Position numbers and translations under genes: made by a program. This document shows, piece by piece, positions 30,958 to 48,359 of a stretch of DNA of 64,000 nt. The DNA comes from Herbiconiux ginsengi (GTDB lineage: Bacteria > Actinomycetota > Actinomycetes > Actinomycetales > Microbacteriaceae). A model generated the notes under the pieces. It was given only the letters and a program-made list of their open reading frames with translations. It ran no database searches and was not told the DNA's origin. The stretch lies in the NCBI RefSeq assembly GCF_900107435.1, contig NZ_FNPZ01000001.1, positions 96,960 to 160,959 on the forward strand. The letters are read 5' to 3'. Numbering within the stretch: the stretch's first letter is position 1; each line of letters begins with the position of its first letter.

Positions 30958-32205
30958 TCAGACGCGCCGTGCTCGGCGAGTGAGTGCCGGGGTCGCGGCG
31001 AGCAGCCCGCCGGCGAGCACGAGCGCGATCAGGTAGATCCACGGCAGCGAGGTCAGTCCCAGCGAGTCGAGGAAGAGGGAGCCGACCAGCGCCCCGATGC
31101 CGATGCCAGCATTGAAGGCGGAGGAATAGAACGCGCTCGACGTGTCGCGGATCTCCGGCGACGCCGCGTGCATCAGACGCGTGGGCAGCAGCGTCGGCAC
31201 GACACCGAACGCCACGCCCCAGACGAAGAACGCGCCGATGGCCACCACGGGGTTCGCGGCGAACACCGCGAGCAGCAGCACCGAGACACCGGTCGCGGCC
31301 AGTGCGACCACGAGCCCCGTGGTGGGCCGGCGGCCGAACACCGCACCGGCGGCGAAGACGCCGATCGCACCGGCGCCGCCGTACACCAGCAGGAGCAGCC
31401 CTACCTGGCCCTCGGGCACACCCATCTGGCCGATCATGAAGGGAGCGATGTAGGTGTAGAACGCGTAGTTGCCGATCATGATCACCGCGACCAGGATGCA
31501 GATGAGGGCGACCACGGGGATGGTGGGGTCGAGCGGTGCGTGGCGCCGGGCGACCCGGAGCGCCCGGGTGTCGGTCGAGGGTGCGAGGTGCTTGCGGTGG
31601 TCGACCCGCGGCAGCAGCAACAGGATGAAGACGGCGCCGAGGAGCGCCAGCGCACCGATGCCGAAGAACGGCACGCGCCAGCCCCAGGCGTGACCGACGG
31701 CCGTGGCGAGCGGAACGCCCAGCACGAAGGCGAGCGTGCCGCCACCGGTGGTGATGGCCACGGCGCGGCCGATCTGGTCGCGCGGCACGAGGTGCGCGGA
31801 GTAGGCGCCCACGACGCCCCAGAACACGCCGTGCGCCATGCCGCCGACGACACGAGCGCCCACCAGCACCTCGAAGTTCGGGGCGAGCCCGCCGACGGTG
31901 CTGGAGATCGCGATCGCCACGAGCACCAGCATGAGCAGCAGATGCCGCGGAATCCGGCGGAACAGGAAGGTCAGCGGAACGCTCGTGAGCACCACGGCGA
32001 ACGCGAAGACGCTGATCAGCAGGCCGGTCTGCGATTCGGAGACGCCGAGCGAGCTGCTCATCTCGGGCAGCAGCCCGGTCGGGATCATCTCGGCGGTCAC
32101 CGAGAGGAAGACGGCGACTGCGAGAACGATCAGGCCGCCCCAGGGGAAGCGTTTCACGACGGGCGCAGCGCCCGTCTGAGGCAAAGTTGTGGTCACGGAG
32201 TGCAC
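30958..32205 (-). CDS. MFS transporter, DHA1 (AraJ/sugar-efflux-like) family
   Basis: 415 residues, 12 predicted transmembrane helices in two halves. Motifs: TAEMIPTGLLPEMSSSLGVS at helix 1, LTFLFRRIPRHLL as motif A-like loop, GARVVGGMAHGVFWGV, and the central hydrophilic loop about 195-225. This subgroup exports sugars, arabinose-like compounds or drugs. GTG 32205 is preferred; GTG 32196 is possible. A perfect 14-bp palindrome GCGAACCGGTTCGC (32310-32323) lies in the divergent gap with purU. Confidence 0.88.
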   Translation of the reverse strand: MHSVTTTLPQTGAAPVVKRFPWGGLIVLAVAVFLSVTAEMIPTGLLPEMSSSLGVSESQTGLLISVFAFAVVLTSVPLTFLFRRIPRHLLLMLVLVAIAISSTVGGLAPNFEVLVGARVVGGMAHGVFWGVVGAYSAHLVPRDQIGRAVAITTGGGTLAFVLGVPLATAVGHAWGWRVPFFGIGALALLGAVFILLLLPRVDHRKHLAPSTDTRALRVARRHAPLDPTIPVVALICILVAVIMIGNYAFYTYIAPFMIGQMGVPEGQVGLLLLVYGGAGAIGVFAAGAVFGRRPTTGLVVALAATGVSVLLLAVFAANPVVAIGAFFVWGVAFGVVPTLLPTRLMHAASPEIRDTSSAFYSSAFNAGIGIGALVGSLFLDSLGLTSLPWIYLIALVLAGGLLAATPALTRRARRV

Positions 32206-33492: not shown

Positions 33493-34278
33493 TCACGCGA
33501 CTCGGGGCTTGAACTCCTGCACCGAGCGGTAGTAGTCGGCGAGGGCAAGGCCGGAGGCTGCGGCCTCGTCGACCACGACCGTGGCGTGCCGGTGCAGCTG
33601 CAGGATGGAGGCCGGCCAGCGGCTCGAGAGCGGTCCCTCGACGGCGTGCGCGATCGCATCCGCCTTCTCAGCCCCCTGGGCCACGAGGAGGAGGCGCCGT
33701 GCGTCGCCGATGGTGCCGAGGCCCTGCGTGATGCAGTGCACGGGCACCTGGTCGGGAGAGTCGAAGAAGCGGGCGTTGTCGGCACGGGTCTGCGGCGCCA
33801 GGGTCTTCACGCGGGTGCGGGAGCTGAGCGAGGAGCTCGGCTCGTTGAAGCCGACATGCCCGTTGCGGCCGATGCCGAGCAGCTGCAGCTCGATGCCGCC
33901 GGCACCGGCGATCGCGGCGTCGTAAGCAGCCGCCGCGGCGTCGGCGTCGGCCGCGGCGCCGTCGGGCACGTGAGCGTTGGCCGGATCGATGCCGAGCGGC
34001 CGCACGATCTCCCGGCTGACCACCGCCGCGTAGCTCTCGGGGTGGCCCGCGGGCAGGCCCACGTACTCGTCGAGCGCGAACACGGTGACGGCCGAGAAGT
34101 CGACGCGCCCGGGTGCCGACGGCGCCGAGAGCTCGGCGAGGCGCTGGTAGGTGGCTCCGGGCGACGACCCGGTGGCCACGCCGAGCACGGCATCGGGCCG
34201 CGACCGCACCACCCCCGCGATGATGTCGGCCGCAACCCGCGCGACCTCGTCGGGTGTGTCGGTGATGATGATCTCCAT
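33493..34278 (-). CDS. nagB: glucosamine-6-phosphate deaminase, paralogue 1
   Basis: Converts glucosamine-6-phosphate to fructose-6-phosphate plus ammonia. 261 residues from ATG 34278 (GAAAGG upstream). Signatures: GVATGSSPGATYQ (phosphate loop), FALDEYVGLP (catalytic Asp), GIGRNGHVGFNEP, RVKTLAPQTRADNARFF. The residue at the E. coli Asp141 position is Asn, as in many Gram-positive NagBs; the second copy at 43050 has Asp. Last gene of the murQ-transporter-kinase operon, after a 112-bp gap that holds a palindromic repeat. Confidence 0.94.
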   Translation of the reverse strand: MEIIITDTPDEVARVAADIIAGVVRSRPDAVLGVATGSSPGATYQRLAELSAPSAPGRVDFSAVTVFALDEYVGLPAGHPESYAAVVSREIVRPLGIDPANAHVPDGAAADADAAAAAYDAAIAGAGGIELQLLGIGRNGHVGFNEPSSSLSSRTRVKTLAPQTRADNARFFDSPDQVPVHCITQGLGTIGDARRLLLVAQGAEKADAIAHAVEGPLSSRWPASILQLHRHATVVVDEAAASGLALADYYRSVQEFKPRVA

Positions 34279-34390: not shown

Positions 34391-35530
34391 TCAGAGGGCG
34401 GGAAGGGCGAGCCAAAGGTGCTCGGGGTGCCCGGAGGGCGGGGTGGGAGACACGAGAAGGCGGGCGAGGCGGATGGCGCCGTCGAGCGGGGTGCCGGCGG
34501 GTGGGCGCAGCTCGATCGGCGGATGCGCCTCCCGCACGGCGGCCGCGAACGCCTCGGTGAACGCTCCCGTGGCCCCTCGAGACGCCGCTCCTGCCCCAGG
34601 CGCGGCGGGAGCGGGTTGGGGGATGGACGCGGCGGATGGAGCGCCGAGATGTGCTGTCGCTGCCGCGCCTGGGTCGGGAGTGGATGCGGCGGGTGCGGCG
34701 AAGACGCCGCCGACCGCCGAGGCGACCCGCGGGAGCCGCGGGTCGAGTGCCGCCACGAGAGTGCGCGCCACCTCCCGGCCCGCATCCGTCATGATGCGCA
34801 CGGCAGCCGGGTCGCCCTCCCCGGCCAGGGCGTCCACGCGGCCGGCGAAGGAGCCGAGGACCCCCGCGCGGTCGTTGCGCGTGTAGAGCTGGGAGGGCCA
34901 GGTCTCGGGTGCCCCGAACGACTCGACCGCCGCGGCGAGGAGCGCTCCGCCGTCGGTGGATACGCCGTCGAACTGACGCATCGCGGCCTCGAGGCCCTCC
35001 CGGCCGATCCAGGAACCGGCGCCGCGGTCGCCGAGCAGGTGACCCCATCCGTCGACCCGGCGCCAGACCGATCCCAGGTCGGTGCCGAGCGCCACCGATC
35101 CGGTGCCCACGGCCACCACCGCGCCCGCTGAGCCGGCGAGCGCGCCGAGGTGGGCGGTCACGGCATCCGTCGCGAGCGCGGCGACGGCCCCGGGCCGGCG
35201 CGCGGCGATCGCGCGCACCACCGCGTGCGGGTCGTCGATCAACGTGAACGCTCCGGTCGCGCCGACAGCGATCGCCGCGACGGAGGCCCACTCCCCCGGC
35301 CATTCCGCCGCAGCGCGATCGAGCAGCGCGTCGACGACCTCCGGAATGCTGCTCCCCCGGGAGGCGATCCCGACCCGCGACCCGTGCAGCACGCGCATCC
35401 CGCCGTGCCCGGAATCCGGGCTGCCTGTCGCGCTGCTGTCTCGGACCGGGGCCAGAGCGACGCGGCTGCCGCTGCCACCGACGTCGACGCCGAGCACCCA
35501 GCCCGGGACCGCCGCGGCGCCCGACGTCAC
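34391..35530 (-). CDS. BadF/BadG-type amino-sugar kinase (N-acetylglucosamine/N-acetylmuramic acid kinase, MurK-like)
   Basis: 379 residues from GTG 35530, overlapping the permease stop (GTGA). Actin-fold kinase: phosphate-1 motif GVDVGGSGSRVAL, VGATGAFT, phosphate-2 GAVVAVGTGSVALG, GWGHLLGDRGAGSWIGREGLEAAMR (typical of GlcNAc kinases of this family), and the adenosine motif near ASAVGGVFAAP. An Ala/Pro-rich insertion of about 30 residues follows. BadF-type MurK of Clostridium phosphorylates MurNAc and GlcNAc; adjacency to murQ and nagB1 makes this the predicted source of MurNAc-6-phosphate. Substrate is inference. Confidence 0.85.
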   Translation of the reverse strand: MTSGAAAVPGWVLGVDVGGSGSRVALAPVRDSSATGSPDSGHGGMRVLHGSRVGIASRGSSIPEVVDALLDRAAAEWPGEWASVAAIAVGATGAFTLIDDPHAVVRAIAARRPGAVAALATDAVTAHLGALAGSAGAVVAVGTGSVALGTDLGSVWRRVDGWGHLLGDRGAGSWIGREGLEAAMRQFDGVSTDGGALLAAAVESFGAPETWPSQLYTRNDRAGVLGSFAGRVDALAGEGDPAAVRIMTDAGREVARTLVAALDPRLPRVASAVGGVFAAPAASTPDPGAAATAHLGAPSAASIPQPAPAAPGAGAASRGATGAFTEAFAAAVREAHPPIELRPPAGTPLDGAIRLARLLVSPTPPSGHPEHLWLALPAL

Positions 35531-36378
35531 TTGCTCATGCCCGCCGTGAGTCCCGAGACGATCTGCTTGGTGGCGAGCAGGAAGAGCACGACCAACGGGA
35601 TCGTGGCGAGTGTGAGCCCCGCGAACAACGTCGCCCAGTCGGTCTGGTACTCCCCGAAGAACCGCGTGATGCCCACCGGCAGAGTGTAGGCCTTCTGGTC
35701 GCGGATGAGGATGAGCGGGTAGAAGAAGTCGTTCCACACCGGCACGAAGCGGAACACGATCACCGTCGCGATCGCGGGACGCACGAGCGGTAGATGCACG
35801 CGGAGGAAGGTGGTGAATGATCCGGCGCCGTCGAGCTTCGCCGCCTCGTCGAGTTCGATCGGCAGCTGCCGGAAGAACCCGGTGAGCACAAAGGTGGAGA
35901 ACGGGATGCCGAGGGCCGCGTAGACGAGGATCAGGCTCCACAGGTTGCTCACCATGCCGAGGCTGTCGAGCAGGAAGAACAGCGGCAGGATCGCGAGGTA
36001 CACCGGGAGCATCAGGCCTGACAGGAAGGTGCCTTCCAGCAGGGTGAAGATGCGCGACTTGGTGCGGGCGAAGGCGTAGGCCGCGAGCAGCGAGACGGCC
36101 GTGGAGAGCAGCACCGACGCCACGGTGACGAAGATCGAGTTGAAGAAATAGGTCTGGAAGTCGGCGGTGATCCACGCCTTCTGATAGCTCGTGAGCGAGG
36201 GCTCCAGCGGCAGGCCGAGGGGGCTCTTGGCCATCTCGGGCATGGTGCGGAAGCTGTTCAGCACCATCAGCACGAGCGGCGCGATGGCGATCAGGGCGTA
36301 GAGCCAGAGGAATCCGGAGCCGAGGAAGGAACCGAGGGTGAGGCGCTTGCCCACGGGGCGAGAGGTCGTGGCGGTCAT
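35527..36378 (-). CDS. CUT1 sugar ABC transporter permease, MalG-like (module A)
   Basis: 283 residues, six predicted helices, C-terminal EAA motif ELDEAAKLDGAGSFTTFLRVHLPLVRP. ATG 36378 shares one base with the stop of the partner permease. With its partner and the binding protein it forms an importer predicted to carry MurNAc or a muropeptide-derived sugar because of linkage to murQ and the kinase. No ATPase gene is present. Confidence 0.93.
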   Translation of the reverse strand: MTATTSRPVGKRLTLGSFLGSGFLWLYALIAIAPLVLMVLNSFRTMPEMAKSPLGLPLEPSLTSYQKAWITADFQTYFFNSIFVTVASVLLSTAVSLLAAYAFARTKSRIFTLLEGTFLSGLMLPVYLAILPLFFLLDSLGMVSNLWSLILVYAALGIPFSTFVLTGFFRQLPIELDEAAKLDGAGSFTTFLRVHLPLVRPAIATVIVFRFVPVWNDFFYPLILIRDQKAYTLPVGITRFFGEYQTDWATLFAGLTLATIPLVVLFLLATKQIVSGLTAGMSK

Positions 36379-37319
36379 CAGTAGAGCCTTCTTTCGGCGC
36401 GGCGCATCAGCCAGGTCATGAGGAGGGCGACTCCGAAGATGAACAGGAACAACAGGGTGGCGATCGCCGAGGAGGTGCCGATGGCGTTCGACGAGCCCGA
36501 CTCGAAGGCCGTGCGGTAGAAGAGCAGGCTCAGCACGTCGGTGGCCCCGGCCGGGTTGCCGGCCGAGCCGCCGAGGGCGTAGGGAATAGCGAACGCCTCC
36601 ATGGCCCCGATGAAGGTGAGCACGCTCACCGTGCCGATGGCCGGCAGCAGCAACGGACCGGTGATGTCGCGGAAGCGCTGCCACGACGAGGCGCCGTCGA
36701 GCGAGGCCGCCTCGTCGATCTCATCCGGAATGCCGCCGAGCGCCGCCCCGTAGAGCAGCACAGGGAACCCGACCCATTGCCACGCCGTGACGAACACCAC
36801 GACCCAGATCGCGGTGGTCGGGTTGCCGAGCCAGGGCTGGGCGAGCGCGTCCAGCCCGACACCCTTGAGGATCGCGTTGACCGGGCCGAACAGCGGCGAC
36901 AGCATCAGCGACCAGAGGTAGCCGACCACGAGCGGCGACACCAGGTAGGGAAGGGTGTAGACGGTCTGGAAGAACCGCTTGAATCGGCGCACCCGGTGCA
37001 GCAGCACCGCCAGCCCGAGGCCGATCGTGTTCTGGAAGACCATCGCACCCACGAACAGCAGGATGTTGTGCACGAAGGCGTTCGGAATCGCATCCTTGTA
37101 GGGCAGCTGCGTGAAGATCGTCACGTAGTTGTCGAGCACGGAGAAGTCGCCGCGCACGATCCCCGTCCAGTCGAACAGCGAGTAGCTGAGCGCCGTGACG
37201 AGGGGATACAGGATGAAGATGACGAACAGGATGAGCGCGGGAAGCACGAAGACCATGCCCGCACGACGCGACAGGGTGATGCCGGTGTGCCGGCTCCGGC
37301 GTGTTTTCGTGACAGGCAT
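36378..37319 (-). CDS. CUT1 sugar ABC transporter permease, MalF-like (module A)
   Basis: 313 residues; basic N-terminus, six helices, EAA motif EIDEAASLDGASSWQRFRDITGPLL. Starts MPVTKTRRSR. Tail-to-head overlap with the MalG-like gene. Upstream binding protein gene ends 41 bp away. Confidence 0.93.
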   Translation of the reverse strand: MPVTKTRRSRHTGITLSRRAGMVFVLPALILFVIFILYPLVTALSYSLFDWTGIVRGDFSVLDNYVTIFTQLPYKDAIPNAFVHNILLFVGAMVFQNTIGLGLAVLLHRVRRFKRFFQTVYTLPYLVSPLVVGYLWSLMLSPLFGPVNAILKGVGLDALAQPWLGNPTTAIWVVVFVTAWQWVGFPVLLYGAALGGIPDEIDEAASLDGASSWQRFRDITGPLLLPAIGTVSVLTFIGAMEAFAIPYALGGSAGNPAGATDVLSLLFYRTAFESGSSNAIGTSSAIATLLFLFIFGVALLMTWLMRRAERRLY

Positions 37320-37360
37320 GGTCTTCGTTCCTCAGGTGCTCGTGCTCGGGTGCGGTGGGG

Positions 37361-38650
37361 TTACGGCGTGGGGGTGAACCACTGCGAGATGCCGTCCTGG
37401 AGGGCCGTGGCTGCTCCCGCGGCATCCTGCTCCCCCATGAAGATCTTCTGGATCTGCGGGCCGAGCACGGCGGTGCCGAGCGGGTCGCCGTAGCGGAAGT
37501 CGACGAGCAGCAGGTAGGGCGCCTCGCCCTTCTGGTAGTTGTCCCACGCCTCCTGCATGACCTCGTTGGAGTAGGTCACCCCGGGGATCGCCGAGAACTG
37601 GTTGAGATCGTCGGCGACCAGCTGGCCGAACTCGGGGGTCGCGAGCCAGTTCAGCAGCTCGGCGGCGGCCTCCTTGTTCTTCGACTTCGAGTTGATGGCG
37701 AAGTTGCCGTCGGCGTAGGCAGGGCTGACCGGCGTGGGCGACACCGCATCCGGCGGCAGCGGCACCTGGTACGACCCGATGTTCAGGTCAGGCGCCTGCG
37801 AGGCGAAAGTCGCGATCTCGAACGATCCGCCCGGGAACTGCGCGGCCTGGCCCGAGGTGAACTGCACCTGGCTGTCGGTGTAGCTCACGCCCACCACGTC
37901 GGGGGTGAGGTACTTCTTCATGTCGGCCACGATCTGCAGCGACGCCACGTAATCCGGGTCTTCGAAGGTCTTGCTGCCGTCGAGCACCTCGCCCTCGAAG
38001 GCACTGCCGCCGTAGCGGGCCGAGCCCACGATGTCGGCGAAGATCGGCATCATCCAGTCGTCTTTCACACCGAGGGCCATCGGGGTGATGCCCTTCTCCA
38101 GCAGCGTGTCGTTGAGGGCGATGAACTCGTCCCAGGTGGTCGGAACCTCGAGTCCGTTCTCCTTGAAGATGTCCTTGTTGTAGAACATCTGCAGGGTCTG
38201 GGTGGCCAGCGGCACCGCGTAGGTCTTGCCGTCTGCCTTGCCCTTCGCGCCGGCGAGCACGCTCGGCGCGATGTCGTCGAGGCCGTCGACGATGTCGTCG
38301 ATCGGGTCGAGCTGGCCTGCCTCGATGTTCGGCTGCAGTTGCCCGTAGGCCCGCACCATCGGCACGTCGGGTCCGTCGCTACCGGCGAGCCCGGTGGTGA
38401 GGATCTGGTTGTACTCGGTGTTCTGGAACGCCTCGAAGTCGACGGTGATTCCGGGGTGCTCCTTCTCGAACACGTCGAAGATCGTGTTGTACGCGTCGAT
38501 GTCCTCGGTGCGCCACGACCAGACCTTCAGCGTGACGTCGTCGCCGCTGGAAGCCGCCGTCTCGTTGACGGGCGCCGAGGGGGCGCATCCGCCCAGCAGC
38601 AGCGCGACGCCGGCGACGCCCGCTGCGAGCGAGAGTGCTCTGCGCATCAT
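37361..38650 (-). CDS. sugar ABC transporter substrate-binding lipoprotein (module A)
   Basis: 429 residues, cluster-1 binding-protein fold (bacterial_extracellular family 1). Lipoprotein signal ends LGGC (Cys near 22). Fold markers: LKVWSWRTEDIDAYNTIFDVFEKEHPGI at the start, YNKDIFKENGLEVPTTWDEF, and AAAELLNWLAT near the end. Predicted ligand is an amino sugar (MurNAc or a muropeptide fragment) from context. Follows murQ by 69 bp. Confidence 0.92.
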   Translation of the reverse strand: MMRRALSLAAGVAGVALLLGGCAPSAPVNETAASSGDDVTLKVWSWRTEDIDAYNTIFDVFEKEHPGITVDFEAFQNTEYNQILTTGLAGSDGPDVPMVRAYGQLQPNIEAGQLDPIDDIVDGLDDIAPSVLAGAKGKADGKTYAVPLATQTLQMFYNKDIFKENGLEVPTTWDEFIALNDTLLEKGITPMALGVKDDWMMPIFADIVGSARYGGSAFEGEVLDGSKTFEDPDYVASLQIVADMKKYLTPDVVGVSYTDSQVQFTSGQAAQFPGGSFEIATFASQAPDLNIGSYQVPLPPDAVSPTPVSPAYADGNFAINSKSKNKEAAAELLNWLATPEFGQLVADDLNQFSAIPGVTYSNEVMQEAWDNYQKGEAPYLLLVDFRYGDPLGTAVLGPQIQKIFMGEQDAAGAATALQDGISQWFTPTP

Positions 38651-38719
38651 GGATGTTCTCCTTCTGATTGGTGGTTCTGATTGGTGGTGCTCGGTGGGGT
38701 GGGAAAGGTGGGGAGCCGG

Positions 38720-39664
38720 TCAGGCCGACGGGGCGTCGAGCCCTGCCAGCGCGGCACGCACCGAGCCGTTCGCGGCGGCCAGGGCGGCCCGCGCCCGGTC
38801 GACCGGCACGGCGGCGACGGCGGTGACGATGGCCACCTTGAGGTCTCCGTCGGCCCGCGTCAGCAACTCGGCGCCCTCGCTCTGCGAGACACCGGCCGAC
38901 TGCATGAGGATACGCAGTGTGCGGCGGCGGAGTTTCTCGTTGGTGGCGACGACCGAGACCATGAGGTTCGACCAGGTGCGGCCGAGGGCCACCATCAACG
39001 CGGTCGAGAAGCCGTTGAGCGCCAGCTTCTCCGCGGTGCCGGCCTTGAGCCTCGTCGAGCCGGTCACCACCTCGGGGCCGGTGCGCAGCACGATGTCGGT
39101 GTCGGCGAGCGCGGCGAGCGCCGCCCGGGGGTTGCACGAGATGAGGGCGGTGTGGGCACCGAGCTCCCGCGCCTGAGCGAGTGCGCCGCCGACGAAGGGC
39201 GTGCTGCCGGATGCGGTGAGCCCGATGGCGACGTCGTCGGCCCCCAGGGTGGCGGCTTCCCGCCGCCCGTCGTCGACCGAGTCCTCCGCGTTCTCCACCG
39301 CGTGCACCAGGGCGCGTGCACCGCCGGCCATGTGGGCGACGACCACACCGGGCTCGATGTTGAAGGTGGGCAGCAGCTCCGCGGCGTCGAGCACGGCGAG
39401 GCGGCCGGAGGTGCCGGCGCCGAAGTAGTGCACCGATCCGCCGCGCAGCACGCGACCGACGGCGACGTCGACCAGGCCGGCCAGCTGGGGCGCGACGGCG
39501 GCCACCGCGTCGACCGCCACACGATCCTGCGAGGCGAGGAGCGCCAGGATCTCGGTGGTCGACAACGAGTCGAGCTCGAGCGACTCGGTCAGCCGCTGCT
39601 CCGTCTCGGGCACGTACACGTCTCCCTCGAGAAGGGGTTCGAGTGCGGGGTGGTGCATCGCCAT
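38720..39664 (-). CDS. murQ: N-acetylmuramic acid 6-phosphate etherase
   Basis: Removes the D-lactyl ether of MurNAc-6-phosphate to give GlcNAc-6-phosphate. 314 residues, SIS fold: YFGAGTSGRLAVLDAAELLPTF contains the first catalytic Glu, AVENAEDSVDDG the second; LTASGSTPFV and KAGTAEKLALNGFSTALM are further MurQ signatures. First gene of the leftward module A operon, divergent from the AmiE-like/murR pair. Its product feeds nagA (51299) and nagB. Confidence 0.95.
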   Translation of the reverse strand: MAMHHPALEPLLEGDVYVPETEQRLTESLELDSLSTTEILALLASQDRVAVDAVAAVAPQLAGLVDVAVGRVLRGGSVHYFGAGTSGRLAVLDAAELLPTFNIEPGVVVAHMAGGARALVHAVENAEDSVDDGRREAATLGADDVAIGLTASGSTPFVGGALAQARELGAHTALISCNPRAALAALADTDIVLRTGPEVVTGSTRLKAGTAEKLALNGFSTALMVALGRTWSNLMVSVVATNEKLRRRTLRILMQSAGVSQSEGAELLTRADGDLKVAIVTAVAAVPVDRARAALAAANGSVRAALAGLDAPSA

Positions 39665-39745
39665 CGTTGTCGCTCTTTCGTTTCGTTCGCCCGGGCGCTC
39701 TGCGCTCCGGCGTCATCGAGCAGCATGTAACAAAACCCCGCAATT

Positions 39746-39782
39746 CGTCAAGTTAATGTGGATTTTTTTCATCTGCGTGAAA
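39746..39782. promoter_or_regulatory. divergent murQ / amiE-murR control region with a probable MurR operator
   Basis: This AT-rich stretch holds an inverted repeat TTTCA-N6-TGAAA (39767-39782), a likely site for the RpiR-type regulator encoded just downstream. On the leftward strand TTGACG (39751-39746) is a good -35 for murQ with a weak TACATG -10. Rightward, TAATGT (39754-39759) could be the -10 for the hydrolase gene. Confidence 0.5.
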
Positions 39783-39792
39783 CAATCGAGGA

Positions 39793-40887
39793 ATGGACGA
39801 GATCGCAGCCCTCCTCGACGAGGCGACCGGGGGCGACTCCCCGACCTGCTCGGCCGCCGTCGTGCTGGTGTCCTCCGGCAGGCGGATCGTCGTCTCCGAG
39901 GCGCGCGGCACCCTCGCCCGGGTCGCGGATGAGCGGGGCGCGCCCCACGAGCTCGCCACCGTGCCGACATCCGTCGACACCCTGTTCGACCTCGCCTCGA
40001 TCACGAAGCTCTTCACCGCCGCCGCCCTGCTGACGGTGCTCGACGAGCAGGGGTCGGGCCCGGATCTCCCGGTCGCGGAAGCCCTCGCCGAGTACCGTCA
40101 CGGCGACCTGTCCACCGTCACCGCCGCGCACCTGCTGAGCCACACCGCAGGGTGGCCGGCCGAGTGGACCGACCGGCGCACGGGCCCGACGGCCTGGTCG
40201 CACTTCCGCTCGGCGCTCCCGAGCGACCCACCGGGCCGCGTGCACCGGTATTCGTGCGTGGGCTACCTCTGGGCGGGCCTCCTGGCCGAGAATCTGAGCG
40301 GCGAGAGCCTCGACACCGTGGTCTCGCGAACGGTGCTCGAGCCCCTCGGTCTCCGCGACACGATGTTCACCCCCGGCCCCGAGCTGCGCGGACGAATCGC
40401 GGCGACCGAGTACCAGCGGGTGCCCGACCGCGGTCTCGTGCATGGCGTGGTGCACGACGAGACGGCCTGGGCGCTCGGCGGGGTGACGGGCAATGCGGGC
40501 CTGTTCGGCAGCGCATCCGATCTCCTCGTGTTCGCCGACATGCTGCGCAACGGCGGACGGCACGAGGGTCGTCAGGCGCTGCCCGCGGCCGTGGTGACCC
40601 GCATGACCACCGATCAGCTCGCGCCGCTCGGCCTTCTCCCCGCGCGGCGCCCGGCATACGGGCAGGCTCTCGGCCCGCGGATCGGCGAGGCCGAGTGGAT
40701 GGGGCCCTTCGCCGAGCGCGGCGCCATCGGGCACACCGGTTTCACCGGCACGAGCCTGATCGTCGAGCCCGGAGGCGACCGTTCGATAGTATTTCTGACC
40801 AATCGGGTCCATCCGACTCGGCATCGCTCGGACATCCGGCAACTCCGGCTCCGCGTGGCCGACGCTGTCGTCCGTCTGGAGGAATAG
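39793..40887 (+). CDS. serine hydrolase of the class C beta-lactamase/S12 family, AmiE(YbbE)-like
   Basis: 364 residues without a signal peptide. Catalytic motifs: SITK (Ser69/Lys72), RYSCVGY (Tyr153; the third residue is Cys, not Asn) and GHTGFTGTSL (His314 in place of the KTG Lys). These match S12 esterases/amidases rather than beta-lactamases. In Bacillus subtilis the related AmiE lies in the murQ-murR locus and removes peptides from MurNAc-peptides. Location between murQ and murR supports the same role, but here inside the cell. GAGGA directly abuts the ATG, so initiation may be weak or leaderless. Confidence 0.8.
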   Translation: MDEIAALLDEATGGDSPTCSAAVVLVSSGRRIVVSEARGTLARVADERGAPHELATVPTSVDTLFDLASITKLFTAAALLTVLDEQGSGPDLPVAEALAEYRHGDLSTVTAAHLLSHTAGWPAEWTDRRTGPTAWSHFRSALPSDPPGRVHRYSCVGYLWAGLLAENLSGESLDTVVSRTVLEPLGLRDTMFTPGPELRGRIAATEYQRVPDRGLVHGVVHDETAWALGGVTGNAGLFGSASDLLVFADMLRNGGRHEGRQALPAAVVTRMTTDQLAPLGLLPARRPAYGQALGPRIGEAEWMGPFAERGAIGHTGFTGTSLIVEPGGDRSIVFLTNRVHPTRHRSDIRQLRLRVADAVVRLEE

Positions 40888-40889
40888 GG

Positions 40890-41759
40890 ATGTCCACCGA
40901 TGTCTTCGTGGCCCTCCGCCAGCGCCTGCCCGCGCTGAGCAAGGCCGAGCGCCGCATCGCGGATCGGGTGCTCGAACAACCCTCGATCGTGGTCGATTCC
41001 ACCATCAACCAACTCGCCGAGCTCTGCGAGGTCTCCCAGGCCAGCGTGGCGCGGCTGTGCCAGTCGGCGGGGTTCAGCGGCTACAAGTCGTTCCGGATGG
41101 CGATCGCGTCGGCGATCACCCGCGAAGAGGCCTCACGCGACCAGTTCCGGGTGTCGGATGCCGACATCGGGCCCGACGACAGCGCGCTCGACGTGGTGAT
41201 GAAAGTCGCCTACCAGGAGGCCCGAGCCGTGGAGGAGACGGCACGCGCCCTCGATCTGGTGGCCCTCGACGCCGTGGTCGAGGCCATCCGCGACGCCGCC
41301 CGGATCGACATCTTCGGCGTCGGATCGAGCGGGCTGACCGCGCAGGACCTGCAGCAGAAGCTGCACCGCATCGGGATGAGCTCGTACTCCTGGGTCGACC
41401 CGCACCTCGCCCTCACCTCGGTAGCACTCACCCGGCCGGGGAACGTCGCGATCGCCATCTCGCATTCCGGCCTCTCGGTCGAGGTCAACGACATGCTCAC
41501 CGTCGCCGGGCGGGCCGGCGCAACCACCGTGGCCATCACGAACTTTCCCGAGTCGCCGCTCGGCCTGCTCGCCGATCTCGTGCTCACGACGAGCTCACGC
41601 GAGAGCCGCTACCGTTCGGGAGCGATGTCGAGCCGCATCGCGCAGCTCGCACTCGTCGACTTCCTCACTGTGCGGTTGCTGCAAGGCAGCTACGAACAGG
41701 CCAACGAGTCCCTGCGCCTGACGTACGACGCGGTGCAGAACCACCGCCTGCGCTACTGA
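40890..41759 (+). CDS. murR: MurR/RpiR-family transcriptional regulator
   Basis: 289 residues, starting 2 bp after the hydrolase stop with GGA/AGGG upstream. N-terminal RpiR helix-turn-helix (about 1-77; TINQLAELCEVSQASVARLCQSAGFSGYKSFR) and a SIS sugar-phosphate domain (about 125-255; IFGVGSSGLTAQDLQQKLHRIG, ISHSGLSVEV). MurR senses MurNAc-6-phosphate in E. coli; the same ligand is predicted here. The probable target is the palindrome at 39767-39782. Confidence 0.9.
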   Translation: MSTDVFVALRQRLPALSKAERRIADRVLEQPSIVVDSTINQLAELCEVSQASVARLCQSAGFSGYKSFRMAIASAITREEASRDQFRVSDADIGPDDSALDVVMKVAYQEARAVEETARALDLVALDAVVEAIRDAARIDIFGVGSSGLTAQDLQQKLHRIGMSSYSWVDPHLALTSVALTRPGNVAIAISHSGLSVEVNDMLTVAGRAGATTVAITNFPESPLGLLADLVLTTSSRESRYRSGAMSSRIAQLALVDFLTVRLLQGSYEQANESLRLTYDAVQNHRLRY

Positions 41760-41787: not shown

Positions 41788-43011
41788 CTACTTCGAGGCC
41801 AGAACGGCGTCGAGCCAGTCGAACATGCGCTGCTCGGTCAGGGCTCGGGCGAGGGGTTGGCAGTGGTAGTTCGCTCCCTCCGCGGCCGTGAACTTCACCA
41901 CCGTCGAGACCGTCGGAGTGAGCGCAGCGAGCTGCTGGGACTGGCCGGGCCAGAACTGTTCGTCTTCGGGTTCGGTGATGAGCAGCGGGGTCGTGATGGC
42001 ATCCGCCTCCTCCACCACCGAGTAGGCGCGCACCGCCTCGATCGTCTCGGCGTAGCCGAGGCCGCCGTAGGGCCGGGCGCGGAAGTTCCAGGTGCGCGCC
42101 GCGCCCGGCGCGAGCTTCAGCCCCAACGCCATCTCGCGGTCGAATTTCGCGTTCTCGTTCTCGTCGAGGAGTTTCAGCAGGCTCTTCGGGAGGTGGCTGG
42201 TCCACGAGGTCGAGACATCCACCACGCCGGGGTCGACGATCGCGGCGGCGAAGCGGTGCTCGAAGGCGAGCGCCCGGGGCACCCAGTAGCCGGCCTGGCT
42301 GATTCCGTACACGGCGACGCGGTCGGCATCCACCCCGGCGTGGCCGAGCACGAAGTCGAGCACCGGGGTGAGCACGGCCTCCCAATCGGACCGGAAGGTG
42401 GTGTCGCGCTCGAACAGCATCGACTGCTGCCCGGGTCCGTCGAACACCAGCGCGTCGTAGCCGCGGGCGAGCGCGCCCGAGACGGCGCTCGCCCAGAGGG
42501 CGGCGAGCGACCCGTCGCTGCCGTTCACCGCGACGAGCACCGGATGCGCGTCGCCCGGAGCCGCGCTGCGGAAGTAGTAGCCGGGGAGCGTCGTGTTCTC
42601 GTAGGGGATCTCGACGCTCCGGGCGTCGACCGAGGTGGTGCCGATGAATCGCTCCCAGGCGCGGCGCTGCTTCGTGAACGTGGGCAGCAGCCGGTCGACC
42701 GAGTCGAGAGCCGAGACCGCGTTCACCGCCACACCGTAGTAGGCGGAGGCCCGGAGATAGGCCGAGGCGGCGCTCTCGTCGTGTCCACCCTCCGACGACG
42801 CGTCGCCGATCGCGGCCACGCGGTCGCCGAGCGAGTCCCAGGCCGCGAACCAGCTCTCGTGGTCGTTCTTGCCGATGCCGTTCACCGCGGCCAGTACTTC
42901 GCCGGTGTCGGACGCCCCGGCGAAGGCGAGCCCGAGCACGCAGCGGATCTCGAAGTCGAAGTCGGGATTCGCCGAGAACCCGGCGACGAAGGTCTCTGCT
43001 GCTTTCCCCAT
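41788..43011 (-). CDS. alpha/beta hydrolase with N-terminal helical domain (FrsA / pseudooxynicotine hydrolase-like)
   Basis: 407 residues, cytosolic. A helical N-terminal domain (about 1-125) precedes an alpha/beta-hydrolase fold; nucleophile elbow GISQAGYW (Ser near 250), oxyanion-side VAVNGSDGS, and later ITEPEDEQFW (acid) and NYHCQPLARAL (His). Family members hydrolyse esters or C-C bonds. It is the last gene of module B, 38 bp after nagB2, so a role on acylated amino sugars or muropeptides is possible but unproven. Confidence 0.8.
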   Translation of the reverse strand: MGKAAETFVAGFSANPDFDFEIRCVLGLAFAGASDTGEVLAAVNGIGKNDHESWFAAWDSLGDRVAAIGDASSEGGHDESAASAYLRASAYYGVAVNAVSALDSVDRLLPTFTKQRRAWERFIGTTSVDARSVEIPYENTTLPGYYFRSAAPGDAHPVLVAVNGSDGSLAALWASAVSGALARGYDALVFDGPGQQSMLFERDTTFRSDWEAVLTPVLDFVLGHAGVDADRVAVYGISQAGYWVPRALAFEHRFAAAIVDPGVVDVSTSWTSHLPKSLLKLLDENENAKFDREMALGLKLAPGAARTWNFRARPYGGLGYAETIEAVRAYSVVEEADAITTPLLITEPEDEQFWPGQSQQLAALTPTVSTVVKFTAAEGANYHCQPLARALTEQRMFDWLDAVLASK

Positions 43012-43049: not shown

Positions 43050-43838
43050 TCAGATGATGACCGGATCCCAGGTGGGCTTGTTCGCGAAGGCGTCGAGGTA
43101 GTAGTCGAGCTCGGTGAGCATGCTCGCCGCCTCTTCGTCGACCACGACCGTGGCCCGCGGATGCAGCTGGATGGCCGACGCCGGAACGCTCGCCGTGAGT
43201 GGTCCCTCGACCGCCGCCGCGACAGCGTGCGCCTTGGCGGCACCGAAGGCGAGCAGCACGAGACGGCGCGCACGCAGGATGGTGCCGAGCCCCTGCGTGA
43301 TGCTGTGGATCGGCACGTCGTCGACCGAGTCGAAGAAGCGGGCGTTGTCTTCCCGGGTCTGCTTCGTGAGTGTCTTCACACGGGTGAGCGATGCGAACGA
43401 GGAGCCGGGCTCGTTGAAGCCGATGTGCCCGTCGGTGCCCACGCCGAGGATCTGCAGGTCGACCCCGCCGGCCGCGAGGATCGCATCCTCGTAGCGCTCC
43501 CCCGCCGTCTCGATGCCGAGCGGCCGGCCGTCGGGCACATGCACGCTCGCCGGGTTGAGCCGCAGCGGACGCACCACCTCGCGGTCGATGACCGAGTGGT
43601 AGCTCTCCGGATGCGTCACCGGAATGCCCACGTACTCGTCGAGCGCGAAGCCGCGCACCGCCGAGAGGTCGAGCCCGACCGCCACACGCTCGGCCAGCGC
43701 CCGGTAGACCGGCAGAGGCGTGTCGCCCGTCGCGAGCCCGAGCACCGCATCCGGTCTCCCCGTCACGAGCCGCTCGATCGCCTCGGCCACCAGGGCTCCG
43801 GCCGCTTCGCGGCTGCCGACGACGATCACTTCTGCCAC
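43050..43838 (-). CDS. nagB: glucosamine-6-phosphate deaminase, paralogue 2
   Basis: 262 residues from GTG 43838, supported by GGAGAGAGGG on its strand; GTG 43829 would give a shorter form. Motifs: GLATGDTPLPVY, FALDEYVGIP, GVGTDGHIGFNEPGSSF (Asp at the E. coli Asp141 position), RVKTLTKQTREDNARFF. Starts 13 bp inside the ROK kinase gene, so it is coupled to it. About 50-60% similar by eye to the copy at 33493; the two belong to separately regulated modules. Confidence 0.94.
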   Translation of the reverse strand: MAEVIVVGSREAAGALVAEAIERLVTGRPDAVLGLATGDTPLPVYRALAERVAVGLDLSAVRGFALDEYVGIPVTHPESYHSVIDREVVRPLRLNPASVHVPDGRPLGIETAGERYEDAILAAGGVDLQILGVGTDGHIGFNEPGSSFASLTRVKTLTKQTREDNARFFDSVDDVPIHSITQGLGTILRARRLVLLAFGAAKAHAVAAAVEGPLTASVPASAIQLHPRATVVVDEEAASMLTELDYYLDAFANKPTWDPVII

Positions 43839-44869
43839 GTGGCGACCCTCTCTCCGCGATCGGTGTTCCTGGTCTTCTCGACCCGGGTCACCGGTGCTCC
43901 CACCAGGGCCGCGCCGACCGCGGCCGCCGGGAATCCGGCCGGCACGAGCTGCACGCGACTCTCGAGTCCGAGCGAGGCCAGGAACGGCGACTCCACCGCC
44001 CAGGATGTCAGAACCCGGCGCACCTCGTCGAGCAGCCATCCTCCGAGGTTGCTGAGCCCGCCGCCGATCATCACGATCTCGACGTCGACGGTGAGCACGA
44101 GCACCCGCACCGCCGCGGCCACGTTGTCGACGAGCAGGGAGAGGATGGCCAGCGCGCTCTCGTCGCCGGCATCGGCGGCGGCCAGCAACGAGCGGGCGGG
44201 AATCGGGTCGTCGGTCGCCCACTGGCGGGCGATGGCCGACCCGGAGGCCACGGTCTCCAGACAGCCACGCTGCCCGCACGGGCAGAGCACGCCGTTCGGG
44301 TCGACCGGGATGTGGCCGATCTCCCCCGCCGTGCCGCGCGCTCCACGCCAGAGCGCGCCGTCGATCACCAGTCCGGCCGCGAGACCCGTGCCCAGGTTCA
44401 GATACGCCATGCTGTGGCCGTTGGGCGCCGCCCCTGCAGCGCCCCCGGCCACGAAGTCCGCGGCGCCACCCGGATCGGCGTCTCCCCGTCCGACGTTCGA
44501 CCCTCGGGTCATCAGGTGGTAGGCGCCGAGCGCGGCCGCCTTCACGTCGTTCTCGACCTTCACGTCGAGGCCGAGCGCCGCGGTGAGGCGCTGCCCCACG
44601 TCGAGTTCGTCGAAGCCGAGGTTGACGGCGTGCGAGACGGTGCCGGTGACGACATCGACCTGACCGGGGATGCCGATGCCCACCGATTCGAAAGCGCTCA
44701 CCGGAACGCCCGTGATCTCGGCGATGCGGGTCACGCCCTCGATGGCGGTGCGGATCACCGCCTCCGGGCCGAAGCCGGTGGCGAGCCGCACGCGGTCGAC
44801 GATCGTTCCGTCGTCGTCGACCGCGACCGCATCCGTCTTCGTTCCGCCGATGTCGAGCCCGAGCCTCAT
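43826..44869 (-). CDS. ROK-family sugar kinase, probable N-acetylglucosamine kinase
   Basis: 347 residues from ATG 44869, overlapping the nagZ stop (ATGA). Phosphate loop GLDIGGTKTDAVAV; GIGIPGQVD; ROK zinc site in GEIGHIPV and CPCGQRGCLE; catalytic Asp in VENDVKAAALG. No DNA-binding domain, so it is an enzyme rather than a repressor. A Gly/Ala-rich insertion near residue 130-145 is unusual. Position after nagZ predicts phosphorylation of the GlcNAc that NagZ releases. Confidence 0.9.
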   Translation of the reverse strand: MRLGLDIGGTKTDAVAVDDDGTIVDRVRLATGFGPEAVIRTAIEGVTRIAEITGVPVSAFESVGIGIPGQVDVVTGTVSHAVNLGFDELDVGQRLTAALGLDVKVENDVKAAALGAYHLMTRGSNVGRGDADPGGAADFVAGGAAGAAPNGHSMAYLNLGTGLAAGLVIDGALWRGARGTAGEIGHIPVDPNGVLCPCGQRGCLETVASGSAIARQWATDDPIPARSLLAAADAGDESALAILSLLVDNVAAAVRVLVLTVDVEIVMIGGGLSNLGGWLLDEVRRVLTSWAVESPFLASLGLESRVQLVPAGFPAAAVGAALVGAPVTRVEKTRNTDRGERVATWQK

Positions 44870-46368
44870 GGCCGCACCCCGTTCTCGATCAGGAGGGCCG
44901 CAAGAGCGTCGCCGACGAGCGCTGAAGCGCCGAACGTCGCGACGCCCGCGTAGCGCGGATCGTCGCCGGGCCAACCCATGTCGACGACCACGACCCGCTC
45001 GTGCCGGGCTCGCAGGGCGTCGATGAGGTCGGTCACCCGTGGTCGGCGCTCGTTGTCCTTGCCGATGACGAGAACAGATGCCTCGAGCGGCATATCTCCG
45101 ATCCGGTCGTCCCCGTCCTCTTCGGTGACCTCCACCACCGGCAACACCATCCCGGCCTCGGCGAGCGCACGGAACGGCCCCCAGGGCACGGCGCCCACGG
45201 CGATGTTGGCGACGGTGTCGACCCGCACCACCACCCAGCCGGCACCGCGAAGGGTCTCCGCCGCCGCCGGGTCGAGTGCGAAGGAGGAGACGACACGGCG
45301 GGCATCCGGCATCGCTGCCACGAGTGCCGCGTCCGGCGTCGCCGCGCCCGGCGTCGCACCGGGCACCCCGCCGGCCCGCACCTCGGCGTCGCGGATGCGG
45401 TCTCCCAACTGCCGGAGCCGCACCGTCGCCTCGGCGAGACGCGCCACCGTCAGCTCCCCGTCGACGAGCGCCGACGACACCCGATCGACGATGTCGTCGA
45501 TCTGCTGCTCGGTGTTCTTCGTGCCGATGCAGAGCAGATCGCAGCCGGCGGCGAGGGCCCGCACGGCGGCGGCCGGGATGCCGATCTCGCCCGACGCACC
45601 CACCATGTCGAGGGCGTCGCTCACGATCACGCCGTCGAAGCCCAGCTCGCCGCGCAACACACCCTCGAGCACGGCGGCCGAGAACGTGGCCGGCTGCGCG
45701 GGGTCGAGCCGAGGCAGCACGATATGGCTCGTCATCACGGTGAAAGCGCCGGCGCGCACGGCGGCCGCGAACGGCAGCAGCTCCCGTTCGCGGAGAGTCT
45801 CGATCGAGGCGTTGACGCTCGGCAGCGCGAGGTGTGAATCCTGCGCCGTGTCGCCGTGCCCCGGGAAGTGCTTGATGCTCGCCGCGACACCCTGTGCCTG
45901 CAGTCCCTCGACCCAGGCGGCGCTGTGCCGTGCGACGAGGGCCGGGTCGCTGCCGAAGCTGCGGATGCCGATGACCGGGTTGCGCGGGTTCGAGTTGATG
46001 TCGACGTCGGGCGCGAAGTCGAGGTTCACGCCCACCGCCCGCAGCTCGGCGCCGACGGCCGAGGCGACCGAGCGTGTGGCGTCGAGGTCGTCGAGCCGCC
46101 CGAGCACCGCGTTGCCCGGGAAGGGCGAGCCGCGGTCGTAGTAGAGGCGGGTGACGTCGCCGCCCTCCTCGTCGATCGCGATCAAGGCATCAGGGTTCGC
46201 CGCGCGGATCGCGTCGGTCAGCGCCCGCAGCTGGGAGGTCGAGACGATGTTCTCGCCGAACAGGCACACTCCGCCGAGTCCTTCGCGGAGCATCCGTTCC
46301 ACCCATTCCGGCAGAGTGGTTCCGACGAACCCGGGCAGGAGGGTGCCCAGGATGTGCTGCCGGCTCAT
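44866..46368 (-). CDS. nagZ: beta-N-acetylhexosaminidase, glycoside hydrolase family 3 (NagZ)
   Basis: 500 residues from ATG 46368, overlapping the permease stop. No signal peptide. The GH3 barrel (about 1-340) has IDEEGGDVTRL, the substrate-binding KHFPGHGDT with the downstream DSH that carries the general acid/base dyad of NagZ enzymes, and the nucleophile Asp in VSDALDM. A C-terminal Rossmann-like domain (about 380-500) is present as in two-domain Bacillus NagZ. Cleaves GlcNAc from GlcNAc-MurNAc(-peptide). Cytoplasmic location implies that disaccharides are imported first. Confidence 0.93.
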   Translation of the reverse strand: MSRQHILGTLLPGFVGTTLPEWVERMLREGLGGVCLFGENIVSTSQLRALTDAIRAANPDALIAIDEEGGDVTRLYYDRGSPFPGNAVLGRLDDLDATRSVASAVGAELRAVGVNLDFAPDVDINSNPRNPVIGIRSFGSDPALVARHSAAWVEGLQAQGVAASIKHFPGHGDTAQDSHLALPSVNASIETLRERELLPFAAAVRAGAFTVMTSHIVLPRLDPAQPATFSAAVLEGVLRGELGFDGVIVSDALDMVGASGEIGIPAAAVRALAAGCDLLCIGTKNTEQQIDDIVDRVSSALVDGELTVARLAEATVRLRQLGDRIRDAEVRAGGVPGATPGAATPDAALVAAMPDARRVVSSFALDPAAAETLRGAGWVVVRVDTVANIAVGAVPWGPFRALAEAGMVLPVVEVTEEDGDDRIGDMPLEASVLVIGKDNERRPRVTDLIDALRARHERVVVVDMGWPGDDPRYAGVATFGASALVGDALAALLIENGVRP

Positions 46369-47246
46369 CCCTTCACCGCCCCACTGACGAGCCCCGAGGT
46401 CATCCGTCCCTGAACGATCAGGAAGAACACGATCACCGGGATGGCCATCAGCGTCGACCCCGCCATGATGGCGGCCCAGTTCGTGGTGCCGGTGACCTGC
46501 TGGAAGGTGCGGAGCCAGACCGGCAAGGTCATCATCTCGGGCCGAGAGTTCACCACGAGGGCGAGCAGGAACTCGTTCCAGGCCTGGATGAACCCGAACA
46601 CACCGGTGGCCACCAGCCCGGGCGCGAGCAAGGGGAACGTGATCCTCCAGAACGCACCGGTGCGCGAGCATCCGTCGATCATCGCCGACTCCTCGAGTTC
46701 GACCGGCACGCCGTTCACGAAGCCGCGCAGGGTCCAGATGGTGAACGGCAGCACGGTGGCCACGTAGACGAGCGTGAGGCCCGCGATGGTGTTGAGCAGT
46801 CCCCAGCCGTCGAGCACCCGGTAGGTCGAGACGATCATGGCCTCGGCCGGGATCATCTGGATGATGAGGATGGCGAAGATGAACGTCTTGCGACTCTTGA
46901 AGCGGTAGCGGGTCACGGCGAGCGAGGCGAGGAAGGCGAACACCAGGGCGATGACCACGGTCGAGAGGGTGACCATCAGCGAATTGCCGAGCGCGGGCAG
47001 GAATGGTGCCCGACCCGGATCGAAGATCACCGTCTCGTAGTTCGCCGTGGTGAGGTGCTGGGGCACGAAGTTCGGCACGCTGCCGCGGATCTCGTTGTTG
47101 GGCTGCAGCGAGGTGTTCACCATCCAGTAGACGGGGAACACCGAGAACAGGAACACGACGACGGAGGCGACGCCGAGCAGGATGCCGGTGGTGCGCTTGC
47201 GAGGACTGACCCGGCGTCGGGCGGGCCGGGCGGTGATGGCGGTCAC
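46365..47246 (-). CDS. CUT1 sugar ABC transporter permease, MalG-like (module B)
   Basis: 293 residues, six helices, EAA motif ELEESAMIDGCSRTGAFWRITFPLL. Basic N-terminus TARPARRRVSPRKR. Overlaps the MalF-like gene upstream and nagZ downstream by 4 bp each. Confidence 0.93.
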   Translation of the reverse strand: MTAITARPARRRVSPRKRTTGILLGVASVVVFLFSVFPVYWMVNTSLQPNNEIRGSVPNFVPQHLTTANYETVIFDPGRAPFLPALGNSLMVTLSTVVIALVFAFLASLAVTRYRFKSRKTFIFAILIIQMIPAEAMIVSTYRVLDGWGLLNTIAGLTLVYVATVLPFTIWTLRGFVNGVPVELEESAMIDGCSRTGAFWRITFPLLAPGLVATGVFGFIQAWNEFLLALVVNSRPEMMTLPVWLRTFQQVTGTTNWAAIMAGSTLMAIPVIVFFLIVQGRMTSGLVSGAVKG

Positions 47247-48232: not shown

Positions 48233-48270
48233 CGGGGTCCTCCCGTTAAGATTGCGGTGTGCCTCTCACC

Positions 48271-48285
48271 TTCCTAGGGCGATGG
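48271..48285. repeat. direct repeat TTCCTAGGGCGATGG, copy 1 (upstream of the MalF-like gene)
   Basis: Fifteen bases identical to 49653-49667, extended by a shared TCTGG three bases further on. Both copies precede genes of the same operon. On the coding strand each copy contributes an AGGAA(A)GG purine run. Confidence 0.6.
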
Positions 48286-48295
48286 GCGTCTGGAC

Positions 48296-48331
48296 CGGCG
48301 GTGGCCGCTGTTCGCGCAGCGGCCACCGCCG
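48296..48331. terminator. intercistronic 15-bp perfect hairpin between binding protein and permease genes (module B)
   Basis: Arms 48296-48310 and 48317-48331 pair perfectly around TTCGCG. Lies 29 bp after the binding protein stop inside the operon. A stable hairpin here typically protects the binding protein mRNA or causes partial termination, so that binding protein exceeds permease. Confidence 0.65.
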
Positions 48332-48359
48332 TTTCTCTCGGCTCCGAGGAGCCGGGAGG

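Follow-up and report, generated by a model that had tools for sequence, protein, structure and literature searches.

A putative N-acetylmuramic acid catabolic operon with an ABC importer and a soluble kinase in Herbiconiux ginsengi

We analyzed 64,000 nucleotides of the genome of Herbiconiux ginsengi (contig NZ_FNPZ01000001.1, positions 96,960 to 160,959; hereafter the window) and found there a genuine leftward operon composed of murQ, a sugar-binding protein gene, two permease genes, a BadF-type kinase gene, and a nagB gene. Gene content, homology, and structure models indicate that this is very probably an operon for the catabolism of N-acetylmuramic acid (MurNAc), in which an ATP-binding cassette (ABC) importer and a soluble kinase stand in place of MurP, a transporter of the phosphotransferase system (PTS). 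The original prediction, made from the DNA letters, had paired an ABC-type MurNAc importer with a MurK-like kinase and MurQ. Context, homology, and models support this pairing, with the ligand widened to MurNAc or a small MurNAc-containing fragment.

In the proposed pathway, the ligand captured by the lipoprotein SBP_A would be MurNAc or a small fragment that contains it. Permeases F and G would import this ligand unphosphorylated, with energy from a shared ATPase of the MsiK/MalK type whose gene lies outside the operon. The BadF kinase would then make MurNAc-6-phosphate, from which MurQ would remove D-lactate to leave N-acetylglucosamine (GlcNAc)-6-phosphate. NagA would deacetylate this product, and NagB would lead on to fructose-6-phosphate. 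An RpiR-type regulator probably senses MurNAc-6-phosphate and would control both divergent directions.

Genes of the operon and sources of MurNAc-6-phosphate

The six genes are all on the minus strand, and none contains an internal stop. The first, murQ (38720-39664; ATG start, 314 amino acids), encodes a MurNAc-6-phosphate etherase that scores 350 bits against NF003915 (cut-off 168) and has MurQ 4s12 as its top match in a PDB profile search (1.7e-66). Glu96 (in LDAAE) and the Glu of VENAED are both present, and we take them to be the counterparts of the catalytic Glu residues of E. coli MurQ. It is followed by SBP_A (37361-38650; ATG start, 429 amino acids, lipobox LLGGC; PF01547, 135.5 bits), a lipoprotein sugar-binding protein (SBP), and by permeases F (36378-37319; PF00528, 74.4 bits) and G (35527-36378; PF00528, 60 bits). 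The operon thus encodes an SBP_bac_1 lipoprotein and two PF00528 permeases of a CUT1-type importer; SBP_A falls in the SBP_bac_1/SBP_bac_8 family and does not match the SBP_bac_5 family of Yej/Opp-type muropeptide importers. Next come the BadF/NAGK-type kinase, proposed here as a MurK-like MurNAc kinase (34391-35530; GTG start, 379 amino acids; PF01869, 58.1 bits, cut-off 31.5), and nagB1, coding for a glucosamine-6-phosphate deaminase (33493-34278; 261 amino acids; TIGR00502, 251.8 bits, cut-off 236.9). Permeases F and G overlap by 1 nt (TGATG), and permease G and the kinase by 4 nt (GTGA). These frames and overlaps confirm the leftward run from murQ to nagB1 that had been read from the letters; nagB1 belongs to that run and sits just outside the 34391-39664 range given for it.

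A PDB profile search with the kinase placed MurK of Clostridium acetobutylicum (8zo3) first (1.5e-62), ahead of the S. tokodaii hexokinase (6.7e-49), human NAGK (1.5e-37), and Tannerella forsythia MurK (7.9e-17). The best fold match of its AlphaFold model (predicted local distance difference test score, pLDDT, 84.7) is 8zo3_A as well (E 7e-17), yet the identity is only ~18%; the two proteins have the GWGH..GDxG sugar-site motif in common. Asp122, the GTG triplet at 142-144, Gly161, Gly163, and Asp168 are invariant in the 45 kinase sequences of alignment A3, which holds 44 of its 56 listed sequences and the window and omits the eight rhizobial kinases of the list (alignment A2 holds 63 of 74 and the window).

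Searches of the host genome, 99.85% complete, turned up no other source of MurNAc-6-phosphate. MurP elsewhere in the genome was ruled out, as the sole PTS EIIC gene found is that of the mannitol transporter MtlA (NF011663, 638 bits, above cut-off). AnmK was dropped as a source, since a genome search with PF03702 gave no match. Only one BadF protein exceeds the Pfam cut-off, namely the kinase of the operon; weak BadF matches occur at four other places, including the ROK kinase of a second operon described below. The earlier argument, that with MurP absent MurNAc-6-phosphate must be made inside the cell and that the BadF kinase is the one candidate in the operon, held in those of its steps that could be tested. 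A major facilitator superfamily gene (30958-32205), considered as an analogue of the MurT importer, was set aside because it lies outside the operon. Two MalK/MsiK-like ATPases are encoded elsewhere in the genome, with 54% identity to a Vibrio homologue that is encoded inside a related operon (L137).

Linkage of the binding protein family to murQ

Among 79 genomes (host included), 22 were found to carry murQ above cut-off, with 25 genes in total, and the flanks of the other 24 loci were examined (loci are numbered L). The order murQ-SBP-F-G-kinase of the window recurs in three of these 24 (L085, L080, and L088). This recurrence, together with the co-presence of the SBP family and murQ reported below, is more than chance would give. 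Locus L086 has murQ-SBP-F-G without the kinase, and the same genome has a kinase next to another murQ (L073). By tblastn, a kinase homologue was detected at 10 of the 24 murQ loci, and a hidden Markov model (HMM) built here added weak matches at L083 and L089. Kinase matches below 1e-30 were found in nine other genomes; eight of them are beside murQ or about 4 kb or less from it, and the ninth (G078) is where a contig breaks off, no full murQ match having been found in that genome.

To place the SBP in a wider sample, the species-genome collection was scanned with an SBP alignment and the best 80 of 519 loci were taken. With 26 loci from a class sample and 5 murQ loci, minus 4 without an SBP_A match of at least 900 bases, this gave 107 loci, the window excluded. 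The class sample comprised 394 genomes, the SBP and murQ searches being taken as covering the same 394; the SBP threshold was 1e-60, and four first-look candidates were scored per genome, so that some may have been missed. The SBP_A family was found in 27/394 of these genomes and murQ in 145/394. All 27 SBP_A genomes carry murQ, compared with 118/367 of the others (Fisher's exact p = 3.6e-13, a value that overstates the evidence given the kinship of the genomes). Where murQ was missing from the examined stretch, it was detected elsewhere in 34 of 35 searched SBP_A genomes, the exception being a Halobacillus draft (L115). This search left out most rhizobial loci, L146, L148, L150, L153-L172, and L224; rhizobia also possess murQ, so genome-level presence says little there.

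At the level of loci, MurQ is encoded within 9 kb of the SBP in 40/107, and 33 of those 40 also have the BadF kinase; over the whole set, the kinase occurs in 56 and NamZ, an exo-N-acetylmuramidase, in 20. NamZ was confirmed with Pfam in L101 and L119, and the other NamZ calls come from models built on those two. Linkage follows SBP similarity: loci scoring at least 500 bits (n = 67) have MurQ in 34, the kinase in 43, NamZ in 19, and AnmK in 1; those at 420-500 bits (n = 14) have MurQ in 4, the kinase in 9, and NamZ in none; and those below 420 bits (n = 26) have MurQ in 2, the kinase in 4, and NamZ in 1. No murQ, BadF kinase, or NamZ was found in the 20 named loci L153-L172 (SBP identity 28-33%), several of which are on short contigs. 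SBP homologues with such neighbouring genes are spread over Microbacteriaceae and other Actinomycetota, Bacillaceae, and Anaerolineae, and were also seen in a Vibrio, a spirochaete, and a Devosia. PTS EIIC was not detected at 1e-8 in 10 of 23 SBP_A genomes. Among the 13 that have it, EIIC is at least ~76 kb from the SBP locus in the 7 that were comparable.

The telling ARRANGEMENTS follow four lines: a kinase-MurQ fusion, a B. subtilis-type set, the recurrence of NamZ, and split Microbacterium loci. In two Anaerolineae metagenome-assembled genomes, the kinase and MurQ share one open frame (L108:10646-12577 and L109:5592-7496; 644 and 635 codons without a stop); the genes for SBP, F, G, and a PF00144 protein lie upstream of it. 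Four actinobacterial loci (L107, L203, L205, and L206) encode NagZ, NamZ, PF00144, RpiR, MurQ, SBP, F, G, and the kinase. We take ybbC to encode NamZ and AmiE to be a PF00144 protein; these loci then hold the same set as the B. subtilis cluster, with MurP replaced by the ABC genes and the kinase. NamZ accompanies the SBP_A family repeatedly in Actinomycetota, Bacillaceae, and a spirochaete. Finally, four Microbacterium loci (L101-L104) have SBP, RpiR, PF00144, and NamZ and neither murQ nor the kinase; in their genomes, murQ is at another place and closely preceded by a BadF kinase gene (L251, L252, L246, and L248). A BadF kinase is present in the flanks (~1.5 kb each side) of 9/31 murQ loci (L230-L260).

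In the SBP tree, which was built quickly and has long branches, 22 forks below 80% support, and 14 hand-picked close relatives left out, the window falls in a clade of 40 rows made up of Actinomycetota, Chloroflexota, and one Deinococcota row. At the locus itself, murQ or NamZ is present in 30 of these rows; for the remainder and for the NamZ-only rows, murQ is elsewhere in the genome. Taken across phyla, we consider it likely that this is a CUT1 ABC family dedicated to MurNAc or small fragments of it, with a MurK-type kinase replacing MurP where that is missing, and that lineages with cytosolic NamZ and PF00144 enzymes would import intact MurNAc disaccharides or MurNAc-peptides, using a muropeptide route other than those of AmpG, Opp, and Yej.

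Some loci with other contents were also recorded. Actinobacterial genomes of 1.3-1.8 Mb retain the SBP system (L217, L218, L222, and L223), with the kinase and murQ in L217 and L218, and with AnmK and a peptide-type binding protein in L217, L222, and L223. A sodium:solute symporter family protein adjoins AnmK, followed by murQ and a BadF kinase, in L067 (6922-8412) and L074 (8005-9504) according to Pfam, and in L078 and L079 according to an HMM built here; it is a possible further entry route for MurNAc or anhydroMurNAc. A peptide-type SBP_bac_5/Opp ABC system next to murQ, AnmK, and PF00144 (L071:6009-7532 and L072) is a candidate muropeptide importer. The locus L090 is unusual in that murQ is next to a BadF kinase, SBP_bac_5, and an alpha-N-acetylglucosaminidase (NAGLU) gene.

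Nature of the ligand and alternative readings

Several observations weigh against a MurNAc operon of the kind proposed. MurQ is under the cut-off of TIGR00274 (282.7 vs 302 bits), and the ATPase gene is absent from the operon and must be encoded elsewhere. Beyond the rhizobial-type loci, eight loci have the kinase but no nearby murQ (murQ was found at another place in all of their genomes that were searched), and seven have murQ with no nearby kinase. In 14 alphaproteobacterial loci, mostly rhizobial, the SBP and a BadF kinase are found with a SIS gene but without a murQ next to them, an arrangement that the actinobacterial L225 resembles. The kinase pocket would admit MurNAc but is not diagnostic for it. 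For T. forsythia MurK, acceptance of MurNAc has been related to the lack of a bulky Glu/His at Ser133-Leu135 and of an Asn at Thr94, human NagK being also an exception to the clash (PMC10465942). The window kinase has Thr121 and Asp160-Gly161-Trp162 at those pocket positions, Asp160 being at the Ser133 position; these criteria do not part MurNAc from GlcNAc kinases, and position 121 (Thr94 in T. forsythia MurK) varies widely. A residue signature for MurNAc kinases was therefore dropped as not discriminating.

The binding protein adds to these points. The nearest fold to its AlphaFold model (pLDDT 93.6) is 7eho, a chitin oligosaccharide-binding protein, and its nearest folds bind chitin, xylan, and raffinose oligosaccharides, so a disaccharide ligand would fit SBP_A equally well. 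Arg100, which by comparison with maltose-binding protein we take to be near the sugar loop, is a candidate contact for the lactyl carboxylate. The position is Arg/Lys in the listed murQ- or NamZ-linked rows and His in three rhizobial rows; it is also Arg/Lys in 6/9 weak-homologue rows, which makes it a poor discriminator, and it was dropped as a clean marker. Lastly, with a crude hydrophobicity test, which underlies all signal-peptide calls here, none was seen on PF00144 in the window, L085, L080, L098, L100, and L103, nor on NamZ in L080, L098, L100, L101, L103, L119, and L122. The apparent lack of signal peptides on NamZ and PF00144 proteins in Microbacteriaceae loci suggests that the imported ligand is larger than free MurNAc, and NamZ was looked for in the host genome and not found.

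These points bear first on what is imported. A variant of the MurNAc operon would have a small fragment, such as MurNAc-GlcNAc or a MurNAc-peptide, imported instead of free MurNAc; either the PF00144 hydrolase, acting as an AmiE-like amidase, or NamZ, where present, would cleave it in the cytosol before the kinase and MurQ act. In its favour are the apparent lack of signal peptides on these enzymes in several loci and the oligosaccharide-binding folds nearest to SBP_A. The substrate of S. aureus MurP that is released by Atl is reportedly a disaccharide. That MurP imports an Atl-released turnover product (Kluj 2018) points the same way. However, a signal-like start was found in 10/12 hydrolases of L107, L203, L205, and L206, and in 13/15 when L116 is counted (the PF00144 of L205 and the NamZ of L203 have a start that is not clearly signal-like); such enzymes should yield free MurNAc outside, and the SBPs of these five loci are in the same family as SBP_A. 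The host genome, moreover, is without a NamZ for cutting a disaccharide. We regard this variant as tentative, its probability, somewhat short of even, being a share of that of the MurNAc operon as a whole. Free MurNAc and a small MurNAc fragment are of comparable standing as ligands, and in the window and several Microbacteriaceae loci the imported molecule may be MurNAc-GlcNAc or a MurNAc-peptide that is then cleaved within the cell. Overall, there is a high probability that the ligand contains MurNAc.

Alternatively, the SBP family could be a general amino-sugar receptor whose ligand changes by lineage, with the murQ linkage reflecting one of several substrates. The 14 alphaproteobacterial loci described above would fit such a receptor, as would L127, which adjoins a GlcNAc 2-epimerase-family gene, and the rhizobial loci may serve another amino sugar. 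Of their SIS genes, one that was tested weakly matches GlmS, and another has no NCBIfam match. Several rhizobial loci, including L126, L133, L138, and L143, have a ROK-family gene besides the kinase and SIS genes, and L126 also has a BKACE-family gene. However, the rhizobial rows form a group of their own in the tree, three rhizobial genomes have a separate murQ with an adjacent BadF kinase (L231, L232, and L235), and murQ or NamZ accompanies most of the clade of the window, with murQ elsewhere for the rest. A general receptor therefore seems improbable to us. Less probable still is an importer of GlcNAc or chitobiose with a GlcNAc kinase, murQ being a mere neighbour under the same promoter: NagB in the operon, a GlcNAc kinase as the sole and far-sub-cut-off NCBIfam match of the kinase, the weak similarity of SBP_A to NgcE (74 bits, cut-off about 400), and its chitin-binding nearest fold would agree with it, but the second operon alongside has its own SBP and permeases together with NagZ, a ROK kinase, and nagB, the distant loci L153-L172, several of them on short contigs, show none of the linked genes, and it was rejected because it leaves the linkage to murQ and NamZ and the kinase-MurQ fusion without a reason.

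Flanking genes and known MurNAc systems

Divergent from murQ, on the plus strand, are a PF00144 serine hydrolase gene of the PBP4B/AmiE-like family (39793-40887; 169.3 bits) and a gene for a MurR/RpiR-type regulator (40890-41759; PF01418, 68.7 bits; PF01380, 70.1 bits). The best NCBIfam match of the hydrolase is PBP4B NF002968 (100.6 bits, under the cut-off of 385); the regulator reaches 130.5 bits against MurR NF012026, under the cut-off of 408, so that it is a putative MurR orthologue. Between murQ and these divergent genes, an imperfect inverted repeat, ATGAAAAAAAT ... TTTTGTTACAT (39724-39774, assigned to neither strand), is a candidate MurR/RpiR operator. It is partly kept in an alignment of 17 murQ upstream regions, and the top sites of a window scan are all within it, the matrix having been made from those same sites and the scan thus not being independent. 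Near-perfect palindromes were also sought upstream of murQ; none was common, and the imperfect repeat alone was found. The nagA gene, coding for GlcNAc-6-phosphate deacetylase, is at 51299-52444 on the plus strand (TIGR00221, 243.6 bits, cut-off 225.65). With nagA and nagB, the genes leading from MurNAc-6-phosphate to fructose-6-phosphate are all within the window.

The second operon (43050-49640, minus strand) adjoins the first and contains SBP_B, two permeases, a NagZ-type GH3 gene, a ROK kinase gene, and nagB2. Its NagZ is without a signal peptide. Operons related to SBP_B include AnmK and murQ in L073, L074, L078, and L082. On this ground, the second operon may be a further entry for peptidoglycan sugars, GlcNAc-(anhydro)MurNAc or chitobiose. 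An alpha/beta hydrolase gene (41788-43011) separates the two operons, and its position is kept in L085.

The system would thus combine known MurNAc-catabolic enzymes with a new entry. The view that ABC import of MurNAc is not an established route agrees with searches of open-licence papers, most subscription journals being outside this coverage: they turned up no sugar-type ABC importer dedicated to MurNAc, although ABC import of peptidoglycan fragments is known from YejBEF-YepA of Agrobacterium tumefaciens (PMC9790009). There is a gap in the account of MurNAc uptake for bacteria that have MurQ but no MurP. Streptomyces coelicolor has murQ without murP, yet a murQ mutant builds up MurNAc-6-phosphate (PMC5061867), and MurNAc entry in mycobacteria has been attributed to "an unknown transporter" (PMC13041923). 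If our reading is correct, the importer-kinase pair would supply the missing route in part of the Actinomycetota, Bacillaceae, and Chloroflexota. It would not do so everywhere, as 118 of the 145 class-sample genomes with murQ gave no match to SBP_A at 1e-60 (some may be missed). MurNAc catabolism would then be modular, with the same enzymes, different entries, and a kinase where the entry does not phosphorylate.

Among known importers, YejBEF-YepA takes up muropeptides; unlike it, the window has an SBP_bac_1 binding protein and not the peptide-type SBP_bac_5 seen at some murQ loci. UspABC of Mycobacterium tuberculosis is a sugar-type ABC system like that of the window, and its UspC showed a 3.5-degree thermal shift with muramic acid, a weak response; it differs in that the text consulted reports no linkage to murQ or a kinase (PMC4929945). 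The gene set itself resembles the E. coli operon of murQ, murP, and the PBP4B gene yfeW with divergent murR, and the B. subtilis cluster murQ-murR-murP-amiE-nagZ-ybbC, in having MurQ, a MurR-type regulator, and a PF00144/PBP4B-like hydrolase (PMC5061867). The likeness to B. subtilis extends to NagZ and NamZ in four relatives of the window operon. Unlike both mur clusters, the window operon has an ABC importer and a soluble kinase and no MurP. The importer MurT of T. forsythia is not known to be an ABC transporter. The murT-murK-murQ operon of that bacterium is like the window operon in joining an importer, a BadF-fold MurNAc kinase, and MurQ (PMC10465942). The two differ in that the importer is MurT there and of the CUT1 ABC type in the window, and in that the window kinase is nearer to C. 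acetobutylicum MurK.

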